This document shows positions 221 to 33,927 of a stretch of 35,226 bases of DNA, piece after piece; the stretch's first letter is position 1, and each line of letters opens with the position of its first letter. Both the position numbers and the translations under genes were made by a program. The notes beneath the pieces are model-generated. The model was not told the DNA's origin. It saw only the letters and a list, made by a program, of their open reading frames with translations, and did no database searches. Source of the DNA: Akkermansia sp. (lineage in GTDB: Bacteria > Verrucomicrobiota > Verrucomicrobiia > Verrucomicrobiales > Akkermansiaceae); the NCBI GenBank assembly GCA_024405415.1, contig JAKSOV010000010.1, positions 1-35,226 of the forward strand. Reading direction: 5' to 3'.

Positions 221-3200
221 ATGAAAGCTCATACACAGGTAACGAAATGGAAAAATGCTGTCAGACACGGCCTTGCGTTCGTGTTGGCGACCCTTGCGCT
301 GCCGGTGATGGCGCAGGTCGAGGACCTGCGCGACGGTGAGAAGCACACCGCCGTATTGCACGGCATGGATGCCGCTGCGCGTCACGCTCGTACAACGCGC
401 GCGAAGGCGCTGTCTGCTCCTCTCGTGCAGAATGGTATGGATGCCGTGAGCGCTTTTGAGCTGTCATGGGCTGCCCTTGCCGGGGAGGCCGCGGGTAAGG
501 GTCGTGCCGAGGATATTCTGGCCGATTTGCAGCAGAACACGCATGAGGAGGTCCTGGCGGCTCTCAGCGTGGAGGAGTTTGTGGACTTGCTGGCTGCGTT
601 GGAGGATGAGGTCGATGCTACGAAGAAGGCGCACGGCGTGGGCATGCATGCCCTCCTGCACCGTTTGGGGCAGTTGTTGCAGAATGAGCGTGAATACCAG
701 GGCATGGGCTTTGTGAGCGGCACGGTGAGCGGCGGCTGGGTGCAGCTCGCGCAGCAACAGGAGCAGCGCGAGGGCGCGATTCTGCCTGCTGTCTGGTCGC
801 TCGTCAACCACTCCGGCACGATTTTGCAATATGAGCCGGATTTTCCCGCCTTCCTGCCGCCCGGTCGCCCCGGCGGCAGCGACCACGACACCATCATCGA
901 TGAAATCGTGGAGGAAAAGAAGAAGGCGGCCCCCCAAGAGGAGCTTGAGACCCAGACGTTTTCCCTTGCCAGCCTGACCGATACGCAGCCCGCAGCCCGC
1001 TCTTTGGGCGTCAGCCTCATGAGCTTCGGCGGCGGTGGCGGCGGTGGCGGCGGTGGCTTTGCCCCGTTCCGCATGATGATGATGGCGGCTCCGTTGGCGG
1101 ATTCGGGCAGCGATGATGTGGTGTGGGACGGCGACCTGACCAAGCTGACCGACGGCGTGAGCGCTACTTTTGACAAGAGAGGGCAGATTAACAAAGGCAA
1201 CGATTATCTCGATGTCACGCTGGACTCCGAGTGGCGCCCCTATGAGATTATCGTGGATGACACGGGTGTCTCCATGACCCAGCGCGGCGAAGCCTACGGC
1301 AAAATCGGCTACGCTTTTAACGGCACCGGCTCCATTGCTGACGATGCAGGGCACAAGACCACCCTCACCAAGAAGGGCAGCGGCATCCTCGTCATGGCCA
1401 ATGCGGGCAACAGCTACAGCGGCGGCACGGATGTGCAGGGCGGTACGATTTATGTGGCCGACCAGGGCGTCCTCGGCACGGGTGCCGTCACCATGCACGA
1501 CGGCACGTCCATGTGGGTGAACTACACATGGAACCTCGACTACTCCTCCTCCTTCCGCAACCCTGTGGTGAGCAACAGTATCCGTCTGGCGGACGGTGCG
1601 TCCTCCACGATTTCCTACGGCGACTTCATCTATCGCAAGGTGCTCGGCAACAACACCAGCCGTGTGTGGCGCAACCTGTACCTGACCGGCGGCATCAGCG
1701 GCGGGGAGGATACCCGGCTTCTCCTGCAAGGGTACACCTCCCGCCTTGATAATTCTTCCTCGCTGAGGTTCACATGCGCCCATATCGGTGGCTCCGTCGA
1801 CCTGCGCGCGACACTGTGGTACAGCGGCTTCATCCTGAACCGCAGCGTGGCCGCCGAGGATGAAAAGCGTTTCTACGGCACGCTGACGCTGGGCAACCAT
1901 GTGAATGATTCCCTCCACAAAGAATCTTCCGTGGATGACCGACTCTCCAACCGCGAGTCCGGTGCCGTGAAGCTGGTGCTCTCGGACGATGTGCTGGAAT
2001 ATGGCACGCTGGATGCCACCCGCGAGTTCGCGTGGTCGAATCTGGATTCCGGCCTCGGCGACAACAACAAGCTGTTGCTGACGGGTGAATACAGCGGCGG
2101 GAAGGTGGATGTGAATGTCAGCGATGCGGTGAGCAAGGCCTATACCGATGCGGGCGGCACGAGCAGCAACTACGGCAGTTACGGTCTGCGCCAGACACAT
2201 TCCAACGAGATTCTTATCTCCAATAACACCAAGGTGGGTGAGCTGAAGGCCGATCTCCTGGGCGTGACGCAGGAGAGCTACCGCGATGCCATTGACTGGA
2301 GCGAAGCGCTGGAAGTGAAGCTGGTGCGGGTGGTGACGCAGGAGAACAGCACGACCCTGACCCTCGGCAAGACGGGGGCTAAGGCGGATTCCTGGTTCTC
2401 CGGCATGGTGGGCTTTGACAAGCAGCTCTGCGATGCCGACGGCGACGGCAAGGATACGCTGACGAAGGATGATATCAGCAAACCTGTTGATGGCTCCGGC
2501 ACCACCGTGGCGGGTGTCAGCATGGTGAAGGTGGGCAACAACGCGCAGTACATCCACTCCGCCAAGCTGCACAACCTCGATGTGCAGGACGGCACGCTGG
2601 GCTTCAACAATGTGGATTTGGCAGGCAACCTGCAACTCCGCAGCGGCACCCGTCTGCGCGTGGGTGTGAATGACGACCGCTGGAAAACCGCTGCTGATAC
2701 CACGCTGGAAATCGGCGAGTGGGGCCAAAACAACAACCACCGTCTCACCGTGGTGACGGAGGATGCCGTGAGCATGAAGAGCCCCATCACGGGTGAAACC
2801 AAGCCTGTGCCCACCGCTGCCCGCATCGAGGGTCAGCTGACGCTGCATGCCGGCACGGAGCTGGAATTCGTGGTAGAGAACCTCATGCAGGACACGGGCG
2901 ACCGCAAGGTGATTATCCCCGTGGGTATCCCCAAGGGCACCGACCTCTCCACCGTGGGCACCACGGGTATCAACTACCTGAAGGAACACTCGCTGCTGCA
3001 GGTGGCGGGCACCACGGGTGTCAAGGATGCTGCGGGCAAGGCCGCCGATGTGCAGGGCCTGCTCACCCTCAGCCAAAATATCGCCGTCTCGCTGACGGGC
3101 GTGAACTTCCTGCGCGAAGATTACAGCGAGCGCACCTACTTCCTCGCCTCGGCGGATAAAATTATCGTGGACGGCGAAAACGTGGCGGAGGGCCATGCGT

Positions 3201-6200
3201 CGGACTTCGCCTCCCGCATCGTGACCCTCGGTTACGGTTTCTACGGCATTGTCTCCTCCATCGACGGCCACGGCCACTACGACAACAACGGCACCTATCA
3301 GACCTACACGGGCAGCAGCTATCTCGGTCAGGACTTCCTGACGCTGAAAGTGGCGGCGGACCCCACGCGCTCGTGGACGGGCTCGACCGTGGCCCGTGGT
3401 ACGCAGGGCAGCGACAAACAGGGCGCGGAGGTGGACGCATGGCTCGGCACCGCGAACACATGGAAGGCGCTGCCCGGCATCAGCGATTATTCGGCCTACA
3501 AGGAGTCCGACTACAAGGATTTGGTCGACCCGCAGTGGAAGGAGAACGGCGTGTACACGGACGGCGTGTCCGTGAAGTTCGGCAACCTCTACCTGCCTGA
3601 AAAATGGGCCGAGTTCCGGAAGAAGAATCCCGAGGCTTCCCTCAATGATTTCCTGGATGCTCTCGACTCCTCCATGGTGACCAAGGTGGACAACACGGCC
3701 ATTTTCTCCCCGAACGGTCACGGCAACGGCATTGCCATGCGCAATGAAACGGGCGATATTCTCTATGGCGTGGACGGCAGCTCCTATTTCAATGAGGACG
3801 GCACCAAGTTCGTGACGAAGGACGGTCTGAGCGCGCACTACGAGCACGTGATGATTGACGGCACGGTGCGCCCCGGCTATGTGACGGTGAACTCCGACTA
3901 CACCGTCAAGACGCAGGACGGCTACGTCACCCTGAAGGATGACACCAACTACGTGTTCACCAATGTCCTGGATGCCGAGGGCAAGGTTGTCCGAACCGGC
4001 TGCATCGCGGATGCCACGGCGGCGGACATGGAGGGCATTTACGCCGGTCTGCTGGGCGCGGATTTGGATGAGGGTGTGAGGAGCGACCTCGCCCACTGGC
4101 ACACGGGCCTGGCCAAGGGCGGCACGGGCGCGCTGGTCATCGAGACGGAGAACACCTACAGCGGCGGTTCCCTGCTGCGCGGCGGTCTCACCGTGATGCG
4201 CAACAAGTGGGCGCTCGGCATGGCAGACCCCACGCTGGCCAAGACGGATGCCGCCGCCAAGGGCGGTAAGATTGAAATGGCCTACGGCGCCGCCCTGATG
4301 GTGGACTACATCGACTCCGCCTACAACGCGGAGAACGTGATAGCACAGGGGCAGGTGACGAACGACTTGGTCATCACCCACATGGCGGACTTCGACAACA
4401 GCAAGGCCACGGGCGATGCCCAGCTGATGAACCGATACGATGCCGCCCTCGTCGTCAACAACCTCAGCTCTTATGACGATGCCATCCTGACCCTGCGCGG
4501 CGCCTCGCTGGCGGAAAACTCCTTCATCAAGAAAGACAGCAAGGAACACGCCTTCTACTCCTACGCCGACTATGTGTTCACCAACCCCGTGAACGCTTAC
4601 GGCACCATCCGCATGGCAGGCTACCTGCAGGGCGGCGCGGGCCGCATCCTCACGGATGACGGCTCCGCCTACCAATACGGCGGCGGCAATGTGCAGCTCA
4701 CCATCTCCGGCCACGATGCGACGGAGGAGAACCCCAAGGTGCTCTGGGACAACACCACCATCGACCTCTCCCTCAACGGCGGCAACAAGAACGTGCTCGC
4801 CATCGAGACGCGCTTCCTGCACAATGAGGACGGCACGGTGACGGAAAATGACGGCACGCGCAAGATTAAGCTCAAGCTCGGTACCCTGAAGGATGACGGC
4901 AAGAGCGGTTACAACGCCTGTGTGATTAACGATGCCTCCTCCGAGCGTATCGGCAAGGGCAACAAGGAATCCTATCTGGCCATCCTGACCCTTGACCCCG
5001 CGGCGGATGCTAACTTCTCCGGCAATGTGGGCTTCGGCATCGGTCAGAACGCCGAGGGCGCGGATATGCCCTCCCGCGGCTACATCAGCCTGATTAAGAC
5101 GGGGGCCGCCACGCAGAGCATCGGCAACGCCCGCCTGCTGGACCTCACGGTGCAGGATTCGGGCCTCATGCACGTTAGCAAGGCCCTGTCCGCGCGCTCC
5201 ATCTCCACCACCAACATCGGTGCTCAGCACATCCACGTGGGCGCGGTGGAGGATGCCGCCATGTCCCATACCCTCATCGTGGGTAAGGGCGGCGTGCTCT
5301 CCTTTGATACCACGCTGAACGCGACCGACCCGCTGAAAAACCTCCTCACCACGGAAAGTTCCGATAACTACGGTAAGGAACTGACCTATGTGCTGCTCAA
5401 GGACGGCGCGACCGTCACAGGCAGCGGCAACTGGTTCACCGACAAGGGTATTTCTGTGATGGGCGGTGCGGAAATCACCTTCAACACCCATGACTACAGC
5501 ATGGACCAGACCGTGACCTCGACCATGGCGGTGTATGGTGCTTCCGCCCAGGCGTTGAAGGATGCTTTTGATGACAGCCACATTTTCTGGCTGAAGCAGG
5601 CCCTCTCCGGCACGGGCGTGACGCTGAACCTCGTGAACGAACAGATGAGCGTGGGTGCCACGGAACAAGAGCGCGGCACCGCCACGGCGAACGGCTATTT
5701 CCTGACGCGCGACCTCAACGCCTACGAAAACACCGCCAAGAAGCTGCAATACGGCTTGCGGGACGGCAGCACGGTGAACATCGGTGCCAAGACCATCCTC
5801 CAGAGCTACATGTCCGCCACCGCGAACAGCGGCATTGAATATAACATCACAGGCGCGGATGCTGCGTTGCAGTTCCTCGATGCGGACTCCAATAAGCTCA
5901 AACTTTCGGAAAAGACCTACGGCGGCGCTCTGGGTGAGACATCCTATGTGGACAAGGCGACCCTTTCCGAGGGCGGTCGCATCATCCTCGGCGGCGCGGC
6001 GGCAGCCACGACAAGCACCAATCAGAACACCGAGAATGTCGTCAATAAGACGGATATCACGGCGGATGCCGATGTCGTCATCACGAACAAGGCGGGGCAG
6101 ACCGCGAGCGTGCTGAACATGAAGACGGACACCGTCAACGCGAACGGCTATGAGACCATCCTCAGCGCGGCGAACAGCGGTCGCGCCACCGTGGCGAACG

Positions 6201-6931
6201 CCGAGATGACGGTGAAGCAGGAAAGCAGTGTCAACAACACCCTCGTGCAGAAAACGGACATCAACACCTCTCTGGTGCACCTGCAAAACAAGTGCTCCGT
6301 CACGCTGGAGGACGTGCTCGTCTCCGCCGATTCCAAGGTGGAGGGCGAAGGCCCCGAGAGCGGCACTGTGGGCGCAGCGGCCGTGTTCCAAGGCGCTACC
6401 GCCGCTTCCGATCAGGATGTCCTGGTGAAGCTTCCCTCCTTCTCCACGGGTTCCGTGACGCTGACGGACCCTGTCACCTGCATCAACACCACGCTCACCA
6501 CCGTGGCGAACGTAGTGAAGAATGACGTGCTGATTCAGGTGGCGAAGGCAGACCAGCTTTCCCGCACGGACGTGGGCGGCAAGGGCCTCACGCTGGGCCT
6601 CACGCAAGAGACGCTGGAGAAGGCCACCGCCGCAGGTGTGCGCTACCTCGCCATCCAAGTGAGCGACAGCGGCCGCTTCCTCTACGAGCAGCAGGCGGTG
6701 CTGGAGTCCGTGAAGCTCACGGACCACAACGGTGCCACCTACACCAACCCCGCCTACGAATACCGCGTGGTGTCCTCCAAGGAGGTGGCGGACTTTATCG
6801 GCGTGGATCAGTCGGAGGTTTCAAACACCGTGATCTACATCGAGGTGAGCGAAACGCCTGAGCCCACGACGGCGACCCTCTCCCTGCTCGCGCTGGCCGC
6901 CCTCATGGCGCGCCGCAAGCGCAACAAATGA
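221..6931 (+). CDS. Giant PEP-CTERM surface protein with autotransporter-type beta-strand repeats
   Basis: This is a 2236-residue exported protein, probably displayed at the cell surface. Residues 1-31 form a signal peptide (basic start, hydrophobic core, cleavage after VMA). Residues 32-260 are charged and helical-looking, followed by a ten-glycine run (270-279) and four methionines (285-288). The rest is low-complexity, rich in Gly, Asp, Thr and Asn. Two stretches fit the autotransporter-associated beta-strand repeat: around residues 366-427 (NSYSGGTDVQGGTIYV) and 1292-1340 (ENTYSGGSLLRGGLTVM). The last 24 residues are a PEP-CTERM tail: PEP, a hydrophobic stretch, then MARRKRNK. In known systems exosortase removes this tail. 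No C-terminal beta-barrel is visible, so it is not a classical autotransporter. ATG 221 is preferred over TTG 110 because the promoter lies at 125-153. Function is unknown; adhesion is a guess. Confidence 0.85.
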   Translation: MKAHTQVTKWKNAVRHGLAFVLATLALPVMAQVEDLRDGEKHTAVLHGMDAAARHARTTRAKALSAPLVQNGMDAVSAFELSWAALAGEAAGKGRAEDILADLQQNTHEEVLAALSVEEFVDLLAALEDEVDATKKAHGVGMHALLHRLGQLLQNEREYQGMGFVSGTVSGGWVQLAQQQEQREGAILPAVWSLVNHSGTILQYEPDFPAFLPPGRPGGSDHDTIIDEIVEEKKKAAPQEELETQTFSLASLTDTQPAARSLGVSLMSFGGGGGGGGGGFAPFRMMMMAAPLADSGSDDVVWDGDLTKLTDGVSATFDKRGQINKGNDYLDVTLDSEWRPYEIIVDDTGVSMTQRGEAYGKIGYAFNGTGSIADDAGHKTTLTKKGSGILVMANAGNSYSGGTDVQGGTIYVADQGVLGTGAVTMHDGTSMWVNYTWNLDYSSSFRNPVVSNSIRLADGASSTISYGDFIYRKVLGNNTSRVWRNLYLTGGISGGEDTRLLLQGYTSRLDNSSSLRFTCAHIGGSVDLRATLWYSGFILNRSVAAEDEKRFYGTLTLGNHVNDSLHKESSVDDRLSNRESGAVKLVLSDDVLEYGTLDATREFAWSNLDSGLGDNNKLLLTGEYSGGKVDVNVSDAVSKAYTDAGGTSSNYGSYGLRQTHSNEILISNNTKVGELKADLLGVTQESYRDAIDWSEALEVKLVRVVTQENSTTLTLGKTGAKADSWFSGMVGFDKQLCDADGDGKDTLTKDDISKPVDGSGTTVAGVSMVKVGNNAQYIHSAKLHNLDVQDGTLGFNNVDLAGNLQLRSGTRLRVGVNDDRWKTAADTTLEIGEWGQNNNHRLTVVTEDAVSMKSPITGETKPVPTAARIEGQLTLHAGTELEFVVENLMQDTGDRKVIIPVGIPKGTDLSTVGTTGINYLKEHSLLQVAGTTGVKDAAGKAADVQGLLTLSQNIAVSLTGVNFLREDYSERTYFLASADKIIVDGENVAEGHASDFASRIVTLGYGFYGIVSSIDGHGHYDNNGTYQTYTGSSYLGQDFLTLKVAADPTRSWTGSTVARGTQGSDKQGAEVDAWLGTANTWKALPGISDYSAYKESDYKDLVDPQWKENGVYTDGVSVKFGNLYLPEKWAEFRKKNPEASLNDFLDALDSSMVTKVDNTAIFSPNGHGNGIAMRNETGDILYGVDGSSYFNEDGTKFVTKDGLSAHYEHVMIDGTVRPGYVTVNSDYTVKTQDGYVTLKDDTNYVFTNVLDAEGKVVRTGCIADATAADMEGIYAGLLGADLDEGVRSDLAHWHTGLAKGGTGALVIETENTYSGGSLLRGGLTVMRNKWALGMADPTLAKTDAAAKGGKIEMAYGAALMVDYIDSAYNAENVIAQGQVTNDLVITHMADFDNSKATGDAQLMNRYDAALVVNNLSSYDDAILTLRGASLAENSFIKKDSKEHAFYSYADYVFTNPVNAYGTIRMAGYLQGGAGRILTDDGSAYQYGGGNVQLTISGHDATEENPKVLWDNTTIDLSLNGGNKNVLAIETRFLHNEDGTVTENDGTRKIKLKLGTLKDDGKSGYNACVINDASSERIGKGNKESYLAILTLDPAADANFSGNVGFGIGQNAEGADMPSRGYISLIKTGAATQSIGNARLLDLTVQDSGLMHVSKALSARSISTTNIGAQHIHVGAVEDAAMSHTLIVGKGGVLSFDTTLNATDPLKNLLTTESSDNYGKELTYVLLKDGATVTGSGNWFTDKGISVMGGAEITFNTHDYSMDQTVTSTMAVYGASAQALKDAFDDSHIFWLKQALSGTGVTLNLVNEQMSVGATEQERGTATANGYFLTRDLNAYENTAKKLQYGLRDGSTVNIGAKTILQSYMSATANSGIEYNITGADAALQFLDADSNKLKLSEKTYGGALGETSYVDKATLSEGGRIILGGAAAATTSTNQNTENVVNKTDITADADVVITNKAGQTASVLNMKTDTVNANGYETILSAANSGRATVANAEMTVKQESSVNNTLVQKTDINTSLVHLQNKCSVTLEDVLVSADSKVEGEGPESGTVGAAAVFQGATAASDQDVLVKLPSFSTGSVTLTDPVTCINTTLTTVANVVKNDVLIQVAKADQLSRTDVGGKGLTLGLTQETLEKATAAGVRYLAIQVSDSGRFLYEQQAVLESVKLTDHNGATYTNPAYEYRVVSSKEVADFIGVDQSEVSNTVIYIEVSETPEPTTATLSLLALAALMARRKRNK

Positions 6932-6943
6932 GGATTTGTCGGG

Positions 6944-6975
6944 ATTTACTAGGTACTATGTACTAGGTACTATTT
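6944..6975. repeat. Heptamer array B (ACTAKGT flavour), left arm
   Basis: ATTT followed by ACTAGGT, ACTATGT, ACTAGGT, ACTATTT in perfect 7-bp register. It faces array C in inverted orientation. It is preceded by a small hairpin, ACAAAT-GAGG-ATTTGT at 6924-6939, that overlaps the stop codon of the giant gene. Confidence 0.85.
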
Positions 6976-7008
6976 ATCAAGTTCGGCGGCTGCCGCCGCG
7001 AGATAACG

Positions 7009-7040
7009 AACCCGTTCTGACGCAAGCGTCAGAACGGGTT
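7009..7040. terminator. Bidirectional hairpin terminator with CTGAC/GTCAG core
   Basis: A perfect 14-bp stem, AACCCGTTCTGACG and its complement, with loop CAAG, followed by a short T run. It ends transcription of the giant gene and is one of five terminators in the window sharing CTGAC-loop-GTCAG at the stem top. Confidence 0.85.
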
Positions 7041-7075
7041 TCCCATCCTTGCGGCGACAGCCGCACTCTATTCAA

Positions 7076-7107
7076 AAATAGTACATAGTACCTAGTACAT
7101 AGTAAAT
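7076..7107. repeat. Heptamer array C (ACTAKGT flavour), right arm
   Basis: AAATAGT, ACATAGT, ACCTAGT, ACATAGT, AAAT in register. It is the inverted partner of array B and an exact copy of array A including flanks (44 bp identical). Confidence 0.85.
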
Positions 7108-7125
7108 CTACAACAAGCATTCTTC

Positions 7126-7162: not shown

Positions 7163-9172
7163 ATGAACACGGACATTCTTCTCAAGGCGGCCAATGAGGC
7201 TCGTGGTTTGGCAATCGATGCGATTTTTGACAAAGCATCCGGGCACATGGGTCTGCCGCTGGGTTGCGCGGAAATCGGTGCGGCGCTCTACGGCGAGCTG
7301 CTGCGCGTGAATCCCTCCGAACCCCGCTGGCTCAACCGCGACCGTTTCGTGCTCTCCGGCGGCCACGGCTCCATGTTCCTGTATGCGTGGCTGCACCTCA
7401 GCGGCTTCGCTGTCACGCTCGATGACGTGAAGGCCTTCCGCTCCAAGGGTTCCATCACCCCCGGTCACCCCGAATTTAAGAGCTGCCCCGGCGTGGAATG
7501 CACCACGGGTCCGCTCGGCCAGGGCATCGCGAACGCCGTCGGTTTCGCCATCTCCGCGAAGCACGCCGCCGCCCGCTTCAACACGCCCGAGCATGAAATT
7601 TTCTCCCAGAATGTCTACTGTCTCGCCGGTGACGGCTGCATTGAAGAGGGTATCTCCCGCGAAGCTGCCGCCATCGCCGGCACGCTGAAGCTCGATAACC
7701 TCGTGCTCATCTACGACGCCAACGGCATCACGCTGGATGCCCCCATCGAGGTCTCCCAGATTGACGATGTGGCCGCCGCGTTCACTGCGCAGGGTTGGGA
7801 TGCCTTCACCATCGACGGCAACGACCTCGCCCAAGTGCGCGAGACGCTCCGCATCGCCCGCCTTGAAAAGAACGGCCGCCCGAAGCTCATCGTCGCCAAG
7901 ACCGTCATTGCCAAGGGTGTGCCCGGTATCGAAGGCACCACCAAGGGCCATGGCGAAGGCGGTGCCAAGCTCTGGAGCGAGGCGCACGCCAACTGGGGTC
8001 TGCCCACCGACAAGCAGTACTTCGTCTCCGATGAGGTGCGCGCCTACATGGCGGGTCTGAAAGCCGAGCGCGAAGCCGCCTGCGCCGAATGGCACGCCGT
8101 CTACGACGCTTGGCGCGCCGCCAACCCCGAGAAGGCCGCCGAGCTGGATGCCTGCTGCGAGCTCTCCGTTCACTCTCAGGAAGCCCCCGTCAGCAGTGCG
8201 GAAATCCCCGTGTTCCCCGCGGGCACCAAGGCCGCGACCCGCGTCTCCGGTGCCGATGCCGAGAACGCTCTCGCGCAGCACTGCCCCGGTCTGCTCTCCT
8301 TCAGCGCCGACCTCTTCTCCTCCAACAAGAATTACCTGAAGGGGATGGGTGATTTCTCCGCGACGGACTACACGGGCCGCAACTTCTGGTGCGGCATCCG
8401 CGAGCACGCCATGGCCGCTATCGCCAACGGCGTGGCCTACGACGGCATCTTCCGCGTCTCCTGCGGCACCTTCTGCGTGTTCGTGGACTACATGCGCGCC
8501 GCCATCCGCGTGGCCGCTCTCTCCCACCTTCCCGTCACCTACGTCCTGACGCACGATTCCGTGGCCGTGGGCGAGGACGGCCCCACTCACCAGCCGGTCG
8601 AAACCGTCAGCGGTCTGCGCATCATCCCCAATCTGGATGTCATCCGCCCCGCTGATGAGGAAGAAGCCGCAGGTGCCTGGATTTGCGCGCTGCGCCGCCG
8701 CCAGGGGCCGACCGCCCTCATCCTCACCCGCCAGAACGTGCCCAGCCTGACCGCCAGCTGCCCCGAGCTCTCCGCCGAGACACGCCGTCAGGGCACGCGC
8801 AAGGGCGCCTACATCGCTCTCAAGGAGAAGACGGCGACTCCCCGTCTCATCATCATCGCCACGGGCAGTGAGGTCTACCTCGCGTTGGAAGCTGCCAAGC
8901 AGCTGGGCGATGACGTGCGCGTGGTTTCCATGCCCTCCATGTTCCGCTTCAACCTCCAAGATGCCGCCTACAAGGAGGAGGTGCTCCCCGCCGCCTGCAA
9001 GCGCCGCATCGCCATCGAGGCCGGCAAGACGGACCTCTGGTACCGCTACGTCGGCGAGGAAGGCCGCATCATCGGTATCGATGACTTCGGCTTCTCCGCC
9101 CCCGGCCCGCAGGTGCTCTCCGAGCTCGGCATGAACGTCGAGAACATCATCTCGGTGGCCAAGGGGCTGTGA
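7163..9172 (+). CDS. tkt: Transketolase
   Basis: A thiamine-diphosphate enzyme of the non-oxidative pentose phosphate pathway that moves two-carbon ketol units between sugar phosphates in the cytosol. The protein has 669 residues, the usual full length. Visible landmarks are SGGHGSMFLYAWLHLSG near residue 70, CTTGPLGQG near 112, the cofactor motif starting GDG at 156-158 and ending near DANG, and the pyrimidine-domain IREHAM with the expected catalytic glutamate at residue 414. The ATG at 7163 is the only sensible start; its promoter ends 9 nt before it. The gene stands alone, between a composite repeat element upstream and a hairpin terminator downstream that it shares with the convergent GNAT gene. 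No other pentose phosphate gene is near. Confidence 0.96.
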   Translation: MNTDILLKAANEARGLAIDAIFDKASGHMGLPLGCAEIGAALYGELLRVNPSEPRWLNRDRFVLSGGHGSMFLYAWLHLSGFAVTLDDVKAFRSKGSITPGHPEFKSCPGVECTTGPLGQGIANAVGFAISAKHAAARFNTPEHEIFSQNVYCLAGDGCIEEGISREAAAIAGTLKLDNLVLIYDANGITLDAPIEVSQIDDVAAAFTAQGWDAFTIDGNDLAQVRETLRIARLEKNGRPKLIVAKTVIAKGVPGIEGTTKGHGEGGAKLWSEAHANWGLPTDKQYFVSDEVRAYMAGLKAEREAACAEWHAVYDAWRAANPEKAAELDACCELSVHSQEAPVSSAEIPVFPAGTKAATRVSGADAENALAQHCPGLLSFSADLFSSNKNYLKGMGDFSATDYTGRNFWCGIREHAMAAIANGVAYDGIFRVSCGTFCVFVDYMRAAIRVAALSHLPVTYVLTHDSVAVGEDGPTHQPVETVSGLRIIPNLDVIRPADEEEAAGAWICALRRRQGPTALILTRQNVPSLTASCPELSAETRRQGTRKGAYIALKEKTATPRLIIIATGSEVYLALEAAKQLGDDVRVVSMPSMFRFNLQDAAYKEEVLPAACKRRIAIEAGKTDLWYRYVGEEGRIIGIDDFGFSAPGPQVLSELGMNVENIISVAKGL

Positions 9173-9173
9173 G

Positions 9174-9208
9174 AATTACAAATTACAATTTACAAATTAC
9201 AATTTAAA
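9174..9208. repeat. Heptamer array E (AATTACA flavour)
   Basis: AATTACA, AATTACA, ATTTACA, AATTACA, ATTTAAA in perfect register, beginning 2 bp after the tkt stop codon. A GC-rich mini-hairpin (GCGGC-TTC-GCCGC, about 9217-9229) and a terminator follow. The right-hand inverted arm is missing because the GNAT gene ends there. Confidence 0.85.
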
Positions 9209-9238
9209 AAATTCGTGCGGCTTCGCCGCAGGGATGAG

Positions 9239-13634: not shown

Positions 13635-13650
13635 CGCGAGAATTCAGGGA

Positions 13651-13762
13651 AATGCGGATTTGTAGGGATGATTAAGATTCAGAATGGAGGGGGAGTTTCA
13701 CCTGCAACCGCAGATAACGAAAATGGTCCGGCGCAGGCGCCGGACCATTTTGTTCTGAATCG
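13651..13762. repeat. Degenerate composite element with terminator
   Basis: The gap between kbl and ppk1 has the same order of parts as the full elements but worn arms. It shows the edge motif AATGCGGATTTGTAGGGAT (13651-13669), an arm holding gattcagaa, the spacer motif GATAACGA, a terminator, and the inverted arm ttctgaatc. No intact heptamer register remains. Confidence 0.5.
13720..13751. terminator. Terminator of kbl
   Basis: A 15-bp perfect inverted repeat, AAAATGGTCCGGCGC and its complement, with a minimal loop and T run. It lies 30 nt past the kbl stop and lacks the CTGAC/GTCAG core of its relatives. Confidence 0.85.
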
Positions 13763-16420: not shown

Positions 16421-18814
16421 ATGGCAACATACCGCACGATTCCCGTCCGCAACCTCAGCGAAGCCGAGCTGACGCAGCTGAGTCAGGACATGAAACTCTC
16501 CCTCTCCACGGAGGATATGCTCGTGGTGCAGCAGATTTTCTGCGAAATCGGCCGCGAGCCCACGGATGTGGAGCTGGAGGTCATCGCCCAGACCTGGTCC
16601 GAGCACTGCAAGCACCGCATCTTCGCCGCCACCGTGCAGCACACCGTCAACGGTGAGACGGAGGAGATTAAGTCCATGTACAAGACTTTTATTCAGCGCC
16701 CCTCCAAGGAGATTATGGCGCAGAAGCCCGGCTTCGTGCTGAGCTGCTTCGTGGACAACGCAGGCTTCATCAAGCTCGACGACGAGCTCTCCGTCTGCCT
16801 GAAGGCCGAGACGCACAACCACCCCAGCGCCATTGAGCCCTACGCCGGTGCCAACACGGGTCTCGGCGGCGTGATTCGCGACATTCTCGGCGCAGGCAAG
16901 GGCGCCAAGCCCATCGCCAACCTCGATGTGTTCTGCTTCGGCGCGCCCGATACCCCGCAGAGCATGGTGGAGGGTCACAATATTATCCACCCGCTCGGCA
17001 TCATGCGCGGCGTGGTGCACGGCGTGCGCGACTACGGCAACCGCATGGGTATCCCGACCACGAGCGGCGCCATCCAGTTCGACCCGACCTACATCTACAA
17101 CCCCCTCGTGTTCTGCGGCACCGCCGGTGTCATCCCGCAGAGCGACATTGCCAAGGAAATGAAACCGGGTCTCGCCGTTGTGGTGATCGGCGGGCGCACC
17201 GGCAAGGACGGCCTCCACGGCGCGACCTTCTCCTCCGCGGCCATGGGTGAAGCCTCCCACGAGGAAGACCAGCAGGCCGTGCAGATCGGCAACCCCATCG
17301 AAGAGAAGAAGACGCTCGACGTGATTCTCGAAGCCCGCGAGCGCGGCCTCATCGAGTTCGTGACGGACTGCGGCGCGGGCGGTTTCTCCTCCGCCGCGGG
17401 CGAAATGCTCTCCGAAACGGGCGGCAACCTGTATCTGGAGCGCGCCCCCCTCAAGGAGACGAACATGCTCAGCTGGCAGATTTTCCTCTCCGAGTCTCAG
17501 GAGCGCATGGTGCTCGCCGTGAAGCCCGAGAACCTCGACGAGCTGCAGAAGCTGGCCGACACCTTCCAGACGGAAATGACGGTGCTCGGCGAATCCGATG
17601 ACAGCGGCGTGCTGCGCGTGTGGCACAACGGGGCCCTCGTCTGCGAGCTGGACAACTCCAAACTCCACGACGCGCCCACCAAGCACCTCACCTCCGTCTT
17701 CACCCCCGGTCCCGCCCTCACGGGTCTCACGCCCGATGACAGCGACCTGACCGCTGACCTCAAAAAGCTGTTCGGTGACTTCGCCATCGTCTCCCGCGAG
17801 CCCATCATCCGCGAGTACGACCACGAGGTGCAGGGCAACACGGTGCTCAAGCCCCTCGCCGGTGCCACCGCCGATGCCCCGCAGGACGCCTCCGTCATCG
17901 ACATCGACGGTTCCGAAAAACTCATGTCCCTCGCGCTGGCCATCCTGCCCGAGTGGGGCAAGACCGACCCCCACGCCATGGGCACGGGTACGGTGGATGA
18001 GACCGTCCGCCAGCTCGTCCTCGCCGGCACGAACCCCGACAAGATTGCCCTCCTCGATAACTTCTGCATGGGCAACCCCGAGGAACCCACCGAGCTGGGT
18101 CGCATCGTGGAATGTGCCAAGGGCATTCGCGAAGCCGCCCTCGCCTACGGCGCGCCCTACGTCTCCGGCAAGGACTCCTTCTACAACTACTTCGAGACCG
18201 AGGACGGTCCCGTGAACATCCCCGTCACCTTCCTCTGCTCCGGCTTCGGTGTGGTGGAGGATGCCGACCACGTTCGCGGCTCCTCCCTGCGCCGCAGCAA
18301 CAGCGCGCTCTTCATCGTCGGCAACACCGAGGATGAGCTCGGCGGCTCCGTCTACGCCCGCGTGAACGACATCAAGGGTGCCAAGGTGCCCCAGACCGAC
18401 TGCGCCGAGAACTACGCCATCTACAAGCAGTACTACGAGAACGCGCTCACCAAGGGTCTCGTGCTCTCCGCGCACGACCTCTCCGAGGGCGGTCTCGCCG
18501 TGGCTGCTGCCGAGATGGCTTTCTCCGGCAAGGGCGGCATCACGCTCGACCTCGACAAGCTGCCGACCGTCGGCGGCTGGAAGAGCAACGTCATCCCCTG
18601 CTTCGCTGAAAGCACAGGCCGCTTCCTCGTGGAAGTGGACGAGGACCTCGTGCCCGAGTTCACCAAGGCCATGGAAGGCACGCCCTGCGCCCTCATCGGC
18701 CACGCCACGGAGGACGGTAAGCTCACCATCACGAGCGGCGAGAAGACCCTCATCTCCGCCGATGTCGCCGACCTCAAGCACATCTGGAAGCACGGCCTCA
18801 CGCCCTACTATTAA
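16421..18814 (+). CDS. purL: FGAM synthase, large synthetase subunit
   Basis: Converts FGAR, glutamine-derived ammonia and ATP to FGAM, the fourth step of purine synthesis. The 797 residues fit a stand-alone PurL, slightly longer than the Bacillus type. Landmarks are TWSEHCKHRIF (about residues 58-68) with the conserved histidine, KAETHNHPSAIEPYAGANTG (about 127-146) with the metal-binding glutamate, GGRTGKDGLHGATFSSAA near 257, and SGKDSFYNYF near 582. Two repeated ATP-grasp-like halves of the PurM/PurL fold are evident. It needs the purS-like and purQ products beside it. The only unusual feature is the repeat array in the 40-nt gap before purQ. Confidence 0.96.
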   Translation: MATYRTIPVRNLSEAELTQLSQDMKLSLSTEDMLVVQQIFCEIGREPTDVELEVIAQTWSEHCKHRIFAATVQHTVNGETEEIKSMYKTFIQRPSKEIMAQKPGFVLSCFVDNAGFIKLDDELSVCLKAETHNHPSAIEPYAGANTGLGGVIRDILGAGKGAKPIANLDVFCFGAPDTPQSMVEGHNIIHPLGIMRGVVHGVRDYGNRMGIPTTSGAIQFDPTYIYNPLVFCGTAGVIPQSDIAKEMKPGLAVVVIGGRTGKDGLHGATFSSAAMGEASHEEDQQAVQIGNPIEEKKTLDVILEARERGLIEFVTDCGAGGFSSAAGEMLSETGGNLYLERAPLKETNMLSWQIFLSESQERMVLAVKPENLDELQKLADTFQTEMTVLGESDDSGVLRVWHNGALVCELDNSKLHDAPTKHLTSVFTPGPALTGLTPDDSDLTADLKKLFGDFAIVSREPIIREYDHEVQGNTVLKPLAGATADAPQDASVIDIDGSEKLMSLALAILPEWGKTDPHAMGTGTVDETVRQLVLAGTNPDKIALLDNFCMGNPEEPTELGRIVECAKGIREAALAYGAPYVSGKDSFYNYFETEDGPVNIPVTFLCSGFGVVEDADHVRGSSLRRSNSALFIVGNTEDELGGSVYARVNDIKGAKVPQTDCAENYAIYKQYYENALTKGLVLSAHDLSEGGLAVAAAEMAFSGKGGITLDLDKLPTVGGWKSNVIPCFAESTGRFLVEVDEDLVPEFTKAMEGTPCALIGHATEDGKLTITSGEKTLISADVADLKHIWKHGLTPYY

Positions 18815-18816
18815 AA

Positions 18817-18848
18817 AAATAGTACCTAGTAAATAGTACCTAGTAAAT
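18817..18848. repeat. Heptamer array D (ACTAKGT flavour) inside the pur cluster
   Basis: AAATAGT, ACCTAGT, AAATAGT, ACCTAGT, AAAT in register, filling the purL-purQ gap. It is a solo array with no terminator, so it must be transcribed as part of the operon. It lies 6 nt before the purQ ATG. Confidence 0.85.
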
Positions 18849-18854
18849 CCTCTT

Positions 18855-20725: not shown

Positions 20726-20737
20726 GAGGAATATGGT

Positions 20738-20765
20738 ATTTATAATTTATGATTTATAATTTGTG
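20738..20765. repeat. Heptamer array F (ATTTATA flavour), left arm
   Basis: ATTTATA, ATTTATG, ATTTATA, ATTTGTG in perfect register, then AATTC and a GC-rich mini-hairpin (GCTCGCTTTGCTCGC). Confidence 0.85.
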
Positions 20766-20767
20766 AA
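20739..20767 (-). promoter_or_regulatory. Putative acyltransferase promoter formed by heptamer array F
   Basis: Minus strand TTCACA (20762-20767), 17-bp spacer, TATAAA (20739-20744), then 13 nt to the ATG. Both boxes are built from or touch the heptamer units. Confidence 0.5.
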
Positions 20768-20794
20768 TTCGGCTCGCTTTGCTCGCGGATGGGG

Positions 20795-20825
20795 AAAACG
20801 GTCTGACGAATCGTCAGACCGTTTT
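20795..20825. terminator. Bidirectional terminator with CTGAC/GTCAG core
   Basis: Perfect 14-bp stem AAAACGGTCTGACG and its complement around AAT. It lies downstream of the thioredoxin gene on the minus strand. Confidence 0.87.
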
Positions 20826-20860
20826 GGTAACCTTCGCGGCGAAGGCGCGCGAATATCCTA

Positions 20861-20888
20861 CTTTATAAATTATAAATCTTAAATTTCT
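20861..20888. repeat. Heptamer array G (ATTTATA flavour), right arm
   Basis: CTTTATA, AATTATA, AATCTTA, AATTTCT in register, more degenerate than its partner F. It ends 2 bp before the thioredoxin stop codon. Confidence 0.65.
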
Positions 20889-22051: not shown

Positions 22052-22055
22052 GGGA

Positions 22056-22097
22056 ATTTGTGATTTATAATTTATAATTTATGATTTTTGATTTGTT
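22056..22097. repeat. Heptamer array H, six units (ATTTATA flavour)
   Basis: ATTTGTG, ATTTATA, ATTTATA, ATTTATG, ATTTTTG, ATTTGTT: six units in unbroken 7-bp register, the longest array here. It is a solo array filling the 53-bp gap between alaS and pssA, without terminator or GC-rich hairpin. Confidence 0.87.
22064..22069 (-). promoter_or_regulatory. Possible -10 box of pssA inside heptamer array H
   Basis: TATAAA on the minus strand, 12 nt before the pssA ATG, nearly the same spacing as at the acyltransferase gene. No good -35 is visible, so this may only be a chance product of the AT-rich units. Confidence 0.3.
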
Positions 22098-26479: not shown

Positions 26480-26605
26480 ATAGGCGATTTGAGGTTGTTG
26501 ATTTAAGAAATCCATGCGGCTGCAGGGATGGCAACCCCATCTGACAGACTGTCAGATGGGGTTCTTCTCCTTCGAGCTTAGCGAGACTCTATTCCCAAAT
26601 CACAA
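26480..26605. repeat. Degenerate composite element between convergent genes
   Basis: Left arm with units ATTTGAG, GTTGTTG, ATTTAAG; then GCGGCTGC, the spacer GGGATGGC, a terminator, a GC-rich piece cgagcttagcg, and a right arm whose minus strand reads ATTTGTG, ATTTGGG. The order of parts matches the full elements. Confidence 0.55.
26533..26563. terminator. Bidirectional terminator with CTGAC/GTCAG core
   Basis: Perfect 13-bp stem AACCCCATCTGAC and its complement around AGACT, shared by the convergent Fic and metallophosphoesterase genes. Confidence 0.85.
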
Positions 26606-26610
26606 ATCCC

Positions 26611-33727: not shown

Positions 33728-33755
33728 AACGTATCATGAGAATTACAATTTACAA
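33728..33755 (-). promoter_or_regulatory. Possible symporter promoter
   Basis: Minus strand TTGTAA (33750-33755, inside array I), 16-bp spacer, TACGTT (33728-33733). The leader would be about 20 nt. Confidence 0.3.
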
Positions 33756-33772
33756 ATTACAAATTACAAATT
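33741..33772. repeat. Heptamer array I (AATTACA flavour), left arm
   Basis: AATTACA, ATTTACA, AATTACA, AATTACA, then AATT in perfect register; almost fully complementary to array J. Confidence 0.87.
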
Positions 33773-33805
33773 GGGAAGTTAGCGCGCCTGCGGCGCGTTC
33801 TCAAG

Positions 33806-33836
33806 AACTCGGTCTGACGGTCCGTCAGACCGAGTT
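33806..33836. terminator. galK terminator with CTGAC/GTCAG core
   Basis: Stem AACTCGGTCTGAC and its complement around GGTCC, bidirectional. It separates galK from the symporter gene, so the two are not a simple operon. Confidence 0.85.
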
Positions 33837-33872
33837 TCTTCTCATGCGAGCGAAGCGAGCCAAATTCTAAAA

Positions 33873-33900
33873 ATTTGTAATTTATAATTTGTAATTTGTA
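33873..33900. repeat. Heptamer array J (ATTTGTA flavour), right arm
   Basis: ATTTGTA, ATTTATA, ATTTGTA, ATTTGTA in register, followed by the edge motif AATCCCT. Confidence 0.87.
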
Positions 33901-33927
33901 AATCCCTAAAGGCTGCTGATTTCAGAT

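Follow-up and report, generated by a model that had tools for sequence, protein, structure and literature searches.

Palindromic intergenic repeats with heptamer-array arms in a gut Akkermansia: a probable family of non-autonomous mobile elements

The intergenic DNA of a gut Akkermansia harbors a repeat family, apparently undescribed so far, whose members are probably non-autonomous palindromic mobile repeats, i.e., mosaic elements that resemble REPINs and MITEs. The family is present in high copy number, is dispersed over the genome, is missing from orthologous sites in relatives, lies at gene ends and has a central stem whose two sides covary. The stretch analyzed here (the window, 35,226 nt) is one whole contig of a 95%-complete Akkermansia MAG of 1.98 Mb in 122 contigs. 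The assignment to an Akkermansia species agrees with the alanyl-tRNA synthetase, whose nearest matches are Akkermansia MAGs, several of which come from animal guts. A literature search of partial coverage returned no earlier account of such repeats in Akkermansia, and no Rfam family scored above its gathering threshold, the only matches being sub-threshold miRNA hairpins. An earlier note on this DNA had proposed that the elements could be non-autonomous mobile repeats, chromosome-organizing sites or two-way transcription barriers. The first option is the best supported, by about 38 dispersed copies, empty orthologous sites and a shared end site; nothing found here speaks for the second; the third is plausible in view of the position of the elements and their stem.

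Architecture of the elements in the window

Three gaps, at 33740-33904, 6940-7113 and 20736-20888, are built alike. From a heptamer array, each passes through a GC-rich module and a spacer to a perfect stem, and from there through another GC-rich module to an array in inverted orientation. This order, the inverted period-7 arrays and the perfect central stem had been described in the earlier note, and both reading and folding bear them out (z -10 to -14). The minimum free energy folds reach -70.1 kcal/mol (z -10.4), -98.8 kcal/mol (z -13.7) and -64.9 kcal/mol (z -10.0), respectively, with none of 200 shuffles as good in any case, and in all three the two arms pair with each other, enclosing the central stem.

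In the first element, the left array (33740-33773, + strand, flavor ACAAATT, units NNNNTAC from outer to inner) is followed by the GC-rich palindrome GCGCGCCTGCGGCGCG (33782-33797) and by the perfect central stem AACTCGGTCTGACG-GTC-CGTCAGACCGAGTT (33806-33836), which is terminator-like on the + strand with the tail TTTCTTCT. The right GC-rich module, GCGAGCGAAGCGAGC (33846-33861), had been taken for a second palindrome; the left one is indeed a palindrome, but the right one is a mirror repeat rather than an inverted one, and in the fold it pairs with the left GC module. The right array (33872-33904, - strand, same flavor) is 91% complementary to the left. The second element is present as described except that it continues on its left side into a palindromic end site, AACAAATGAGGATTTGTCG (6923-6941, + strand). 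A left array of flavor TAGTACM (6942-6976, + strand) precedes a GC palindrome, a GATAACG spacer, the central stem, a GC palindrome and the right TAGTACM array (6983-7113); the right end site of this copy is not intact. The element directly follows a long PATR autotransporter-like gene (281-6931) with a PEP-CTERM-like tail (PEPTTATLSLLALAALMARRKRNK). The third element has TTTATAA/TTTATGA arms.

Two further stretches, at 13651-13762 and 26480-26605, had been regarded as worn copies, which is plausible since both keep a perfect central stem. The former (13647-13762) also retains a GATAACG spacer and a degenerate left end site with three mismatches, and the latter (26480-26608) an AAATCAC-type right arm. 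The window also contains a solo half-element, composed of an ACAAATT array and a GC hairpin (9171-9229, + strand), a solo TAGTACM array with a gene on either side (18811-18854, - strand) and a solo TTTATAA array (22053-22094, + strand). Both window ends fall within TAGTACM copies on the + strand, with a right half cut by the contig start (1-44) and a left half cut by the contig end (35176-35226).

The family in the genome and its end site

Searched against the genome, the 6930-7113 query matches about 38 places, many of them 97-100% identical over the aligned length, the 33738-33905 query some 40 more diverged places, and the 20738-20888 query only weak kin. Period-7 arrays number 160 in 474 kb of the genome's own DNA, sampled around matches and hence biased as to array counts, versus none in Markov shuffles and none at periods 4, 5, 8, 10 and 11. 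Different elements use different flavors, as the earlier note had it: TAGTACM, AAATTAC, AAAGTAC/AATGTAC, ACATCGT, AACTTCC, AAATTAT and AAATCAC occur in the genome, and left arms read outside inwards are mostly NNNNTAC variants. Some copies (L103-L110 near 3000, L019 near 1480) have a GTCACGGCGTAGCCGTAGGCGAAGACGGAAG-type loop module inserted within their first GC hairpin, and a similar one occurs in a relative, G001.

Eighteen distinct elements with five array flavors align into one architecture. In this alignment, the central stem is paired in 99.2% of cases, 8 of its 14 pairs show double changes, and its covariation is 0.387 (0.093 when shuffled, at most 0.12 in slid controls). For the arms, the paired share of cells is 92.7% and the covariation 0.281 (0.108 when shuffled); related rows inflate the figures for stem and arms. 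Selection for the central hairpin is likely.

The TAGTACM copies carry CGACAAAT-GRGG-ATTTGTCG at both ends, a 20-bp site that is itself a palindrome. Its core pattern occurs 259 times genome-wide with up to two mismatches, and a reversed control pattern not once. The core has no occurrence in G001 and G003, and variants are found in three other Akkermansia genomes (G002, G005 and G011). In this genome, the site also surrounds AAAGTAC arms, array-free interiors (L268) and 139-bp short forms (L260, L261), stands alone at L263, L264, L271 and L277, and lies back to back at L276. In G005 and G011, it bounds hairpin interiors quite unlike those of this genome. There (L240, L242, L244, L247, L250, L252, L254), the palindrome encloses hairpins of the GGGACTTCAGTCCC type, 117 bp long, as well as larger trains of hairpins, and several of these sit within another repeat ending in CACGTGTCCCAAAG. 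At least 27 contigs start within 60 bp of an end site; the family is thus probably among the chief reasons why the assembly breaks, and helps to account for its 122 pieces.

It could be proposed that this palindrome serves for site-specific recombination, and that hairpin interiors are cassettes gained at, or lost from, solitary sites. The enclosure of unrelated interiors by one site in three genomes (this one, G005 and G011), the solitary and back-to-back sites and the lack of a target duplication all agree with such a system. However, solitary sites may equally well be deletion remnants, some elements have no such site, and no recombinase was identified. The exact site has no match in viral contigs, nor the element in the plasmids and phages searched, a result on which carriage by phage or plasmid was rejected and which also weighs against cassettes. 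Overall, a cassette system appears unlikely. One may also picture the 20-bp site shuttling interchangeable hairpin interiors while hairpin-templated copying homogenizes the arms, so that new flavors would arise on both arms together, a combination that we likewise consider doubtful.

Dispersal, gene ends and the matching of arms

Insertion of a mobile repeat, the preferred reading, is consistent with the state of orthologous gaps. The element is absent from several loci of relatives in the gaps orthologous to 20738 and 22053, and from L034 in the gap orthologous to 33741. The clearest empty site concerns L111:9404-9523, an element of about 120 bp whose flanking genes are separated by 5-14 bp in three relatives and by 40 bp in a fourth. 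Relatives are only about 70-85% identical in DNA, too distant for insertion junctions to be resolved to the base; a permutation test gave no excess over chance of target site duplications of at least 4 bp. The earlier note had expected a conserved fold to keep its arm pairing in orthologous gaps. The gaps of relatives are without it, which favors insertion over a conserved structural site.

Candidates for a mobilizing activity were sought among transposases, and the 95%-complete genome contains none of the IS200/RAYT (PF01797), IS110 (PF02371) or IS4/5 (PF01609) families. A RAYT is thus rejected as the current mobilizer, there being no Y1 transposase in the genome, and the RAYT-like genes of G001 and G003 have palindromes of their own. 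These Y1 genes (L155, L156) have at their flanks GC-rich palindromes and GGTTGGTAGGCATGC-type repeats that are unrelated to the heptamer elements. IS110 and IS4/5 transposases are likewise rejected, being absent here and unlinked to the end site elsewhere. A 7.6-kb stretch that is absent from four relatives (L127:4437-12095) encodes a 1479-aa ORF and has a half-element at either side; it was considered as a possible carrier element and set aside, as its ends fall at ordinary gene ends.

The position of the arrays is strongly biased. None of 176 lies within a called gene (as predicted with a home-made gene caller), and gaps with arrays are co-directional in 62 cases, convergent in 28 and divergent in 6, against 86, 18 and 41 for gaps without arrays. 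Divergent gaps are avoided (odds ratio 0.17, p 1e-5), and in nearly half of the cases a stop codon is found no more than about 10 bp from the outer edge of the array. In relatives (L181, L188, L189, L193, L228), an array may end about 0-5 bp from an ATG start codon, at the expected position of a ribosome-binding site. The central stem is found in all 18 elements, with a T-rich tail on the + strand in 11 and on the - strand in 13, the tail being weak in the TAGTACM type. This is the layout of an intrinsic terminator, a stable GC stem followed by a T-rich tract. To judge from sequence, a two-way transcription barrier is a plausible role, and the element may secondarily be a partly two-way terminator.

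Matching of the two arms had been claimed as a rule and read as selection for a long fold. The detector returned 46 inverted pairs with the arrays outside and the hairpins inside, and 73 unpaired arrays. Arms are of like flavor in 17 of 25 non-redundant pairs versus 5.3 expected (12 of 20, p 0.0002, with the two large families collapsed to one each), so that the claim holds as a tendency. It does not hold as a rule, since eight pairs are unlike, such as the hybrid elements L137:3001-3158 and L118:11378-11547. In the relatives G001, G003 and G031, single half-elements predominate, and four of the six pairs seen are unlike. Within one flavor, an element's own arms are not more complementary to each other than to foreign arms, and unit number varies between copies, changing on one arm alone. 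Arms do covary at the level of flavor, yet with unlike arms so frequent here and in relatives, no base-by-base covariation within a flavor and length change on a single arm, the matching of arms supports the presumed selection for a long fold only in part.

The same observations bear on the idea that the elements are selected two-way terminators, bidirectional barriers kept at gene ends whose arms are held by selection for the long fold through compensatory changes. Their place at gene ends and rarity in divergent gaps, the covarying central stem, the pairing and covariation of the arms and the strong folds would all fit. Nevertheless, the unlike pairs, the interchangeability of arms within a flavor and the one-sided length changes run counter to it, as do the complete absence of the element from orthologous gaps and the existence of 97-100% identical copies at unrelated loci, which require spread. 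Selection as terminators is thus distinctly improbable as an account of the family. In situ growth by heptamer slippage and hairpin-templated (quasi-palindrome) copying around ordinary terminators, a neutral process devoid of mobility, would agree with the differing unit numbers and with heptamer arrays of many flavors in unrelated bacteria, but cannot yield about 20 copies that are 97-100% identical and share an end site at unrelated loci, and is very improbable overall and already unlikely for the TAGTACM family. Period-7 arrays of many flavors were seen at Bacteroidales loci (L041-L086), some as inverted pairs (L072:1108-1171).

Under the mobile-repeat reading, the unit would be a half-element, which begins next to a gene with about 3-5 AT-rich heptamers (...TAC) in tandem and continues inwards into a GC-rich hairpin. 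Two such halves would be set in opposite directions on either side of a strong central stem-loop. Copies would spread between genes, presumably by transposition, through a putative activity acting in trans, and those of the TAGTACM and AAAGTAC subfamilies would do so at the 20-bp palindromic end site. The mode of spread is less certain for the 33741 and 20738 types, which have no such site. Insertions that break promoters would be lost, while those behind genes would persist, and the central stem could then terminate transcription on one or both strands, if weakly in the TAGTACM type. Arrays would lengthen, shorten and drift by slippage, and interiors and arms would be exchanged between copies. 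Unlike arms would be the product of such exchange, and like arms that of descent, perhaps also of copying between arms. With this family, the question of how inverted repeat arms come to change together becomes testable.

Relation to known repeat systems

In their working, the elements are nearest to REPINs, which are REP doublets forming hairpins, with singlets as presumed remnants and compensatory changes on record (PMC3116915). Both are extragenic, high-copy inverted doublets with a spacer, predicted to fold into one long hairpin and accompanied by singlets. Unlike REPINs, which are built on a conserved 16-mer REP, the arms here are tandem heptamer arrays with a GC hairpin, this 95%-complete genome has no RAYT, and the hairpin foot bears no GTAG/CGTC tag, the flanks, read by eye in the alignment, being AGTTMG and CTTG/CACTC. 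As to the plan of a palindrome around varied interiors, the nearest system is NIME/dRS3 of Neisseria, in which 20-bp palindromes, ATTCCC(N8)GGGAAT, flank heterogeneous intergenic units in very high copy number; cassette behavior has been suggested for it, and dRS3 is a phage integrase target (PMC3898611). Palindrome length, interior heterogeneity and copy number are shared, whereas the site sequence here is CGACAAAT(N4)ATTTGTCG, and no phage targeting was seen when viral contigs were searched for the exact site.

Correia elements are MITEs for which a TA duplication and also a probable parent IS are known (PMC3898611). The present elements resemble MITEs in being non-autonomous, 100-250 bp long, intergenic and in high copy, and the TAGTACM and AAAGTAC types, unlike the 33741 type, have terminal inverted repeats in dispersed, near-identical copies. 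They differ in that neither a TA duplication nor, among the three transposase families searched, a parent IS was found. For the arms, the nearest relatives are the TAACTGA heptanucleotide direct repeats of Beggiatoaceae, cyanobacteria and Bacteroidetes, intergenic arrays of 2-6 units (PMC4679880). Those share the period of 7 but are mostly single direct arrays, many of them just upstream of start codons, whereas the arrays described here form inverted pairs around hairpins, lie mostly behind genes and come in several flavors per genome. The elements also recall the PU-BIMEs of E. coli and uptake-sequence terminators (reviewed in PMC2267715), mosaic extragenic palindromes able to attenuate or end transcription, to which the sequence, array arms and end site found here are unrelated.

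Because the defining features of REP-RAYT (the RAYT and its tag), MITEs (target duplication) and dRS3 (sequence) are not found, the family is assigned to the bacterial interspersed palindromic repeats in general and to none of these. It occupies a visible share of intergenic DNA in a gut Akkermansia species, placing strong hairpins at many gene ends, and brings together intergenic heptamer arrays and inverted palindromic mobile repeats, both of them known before but as unconnected phenomena.
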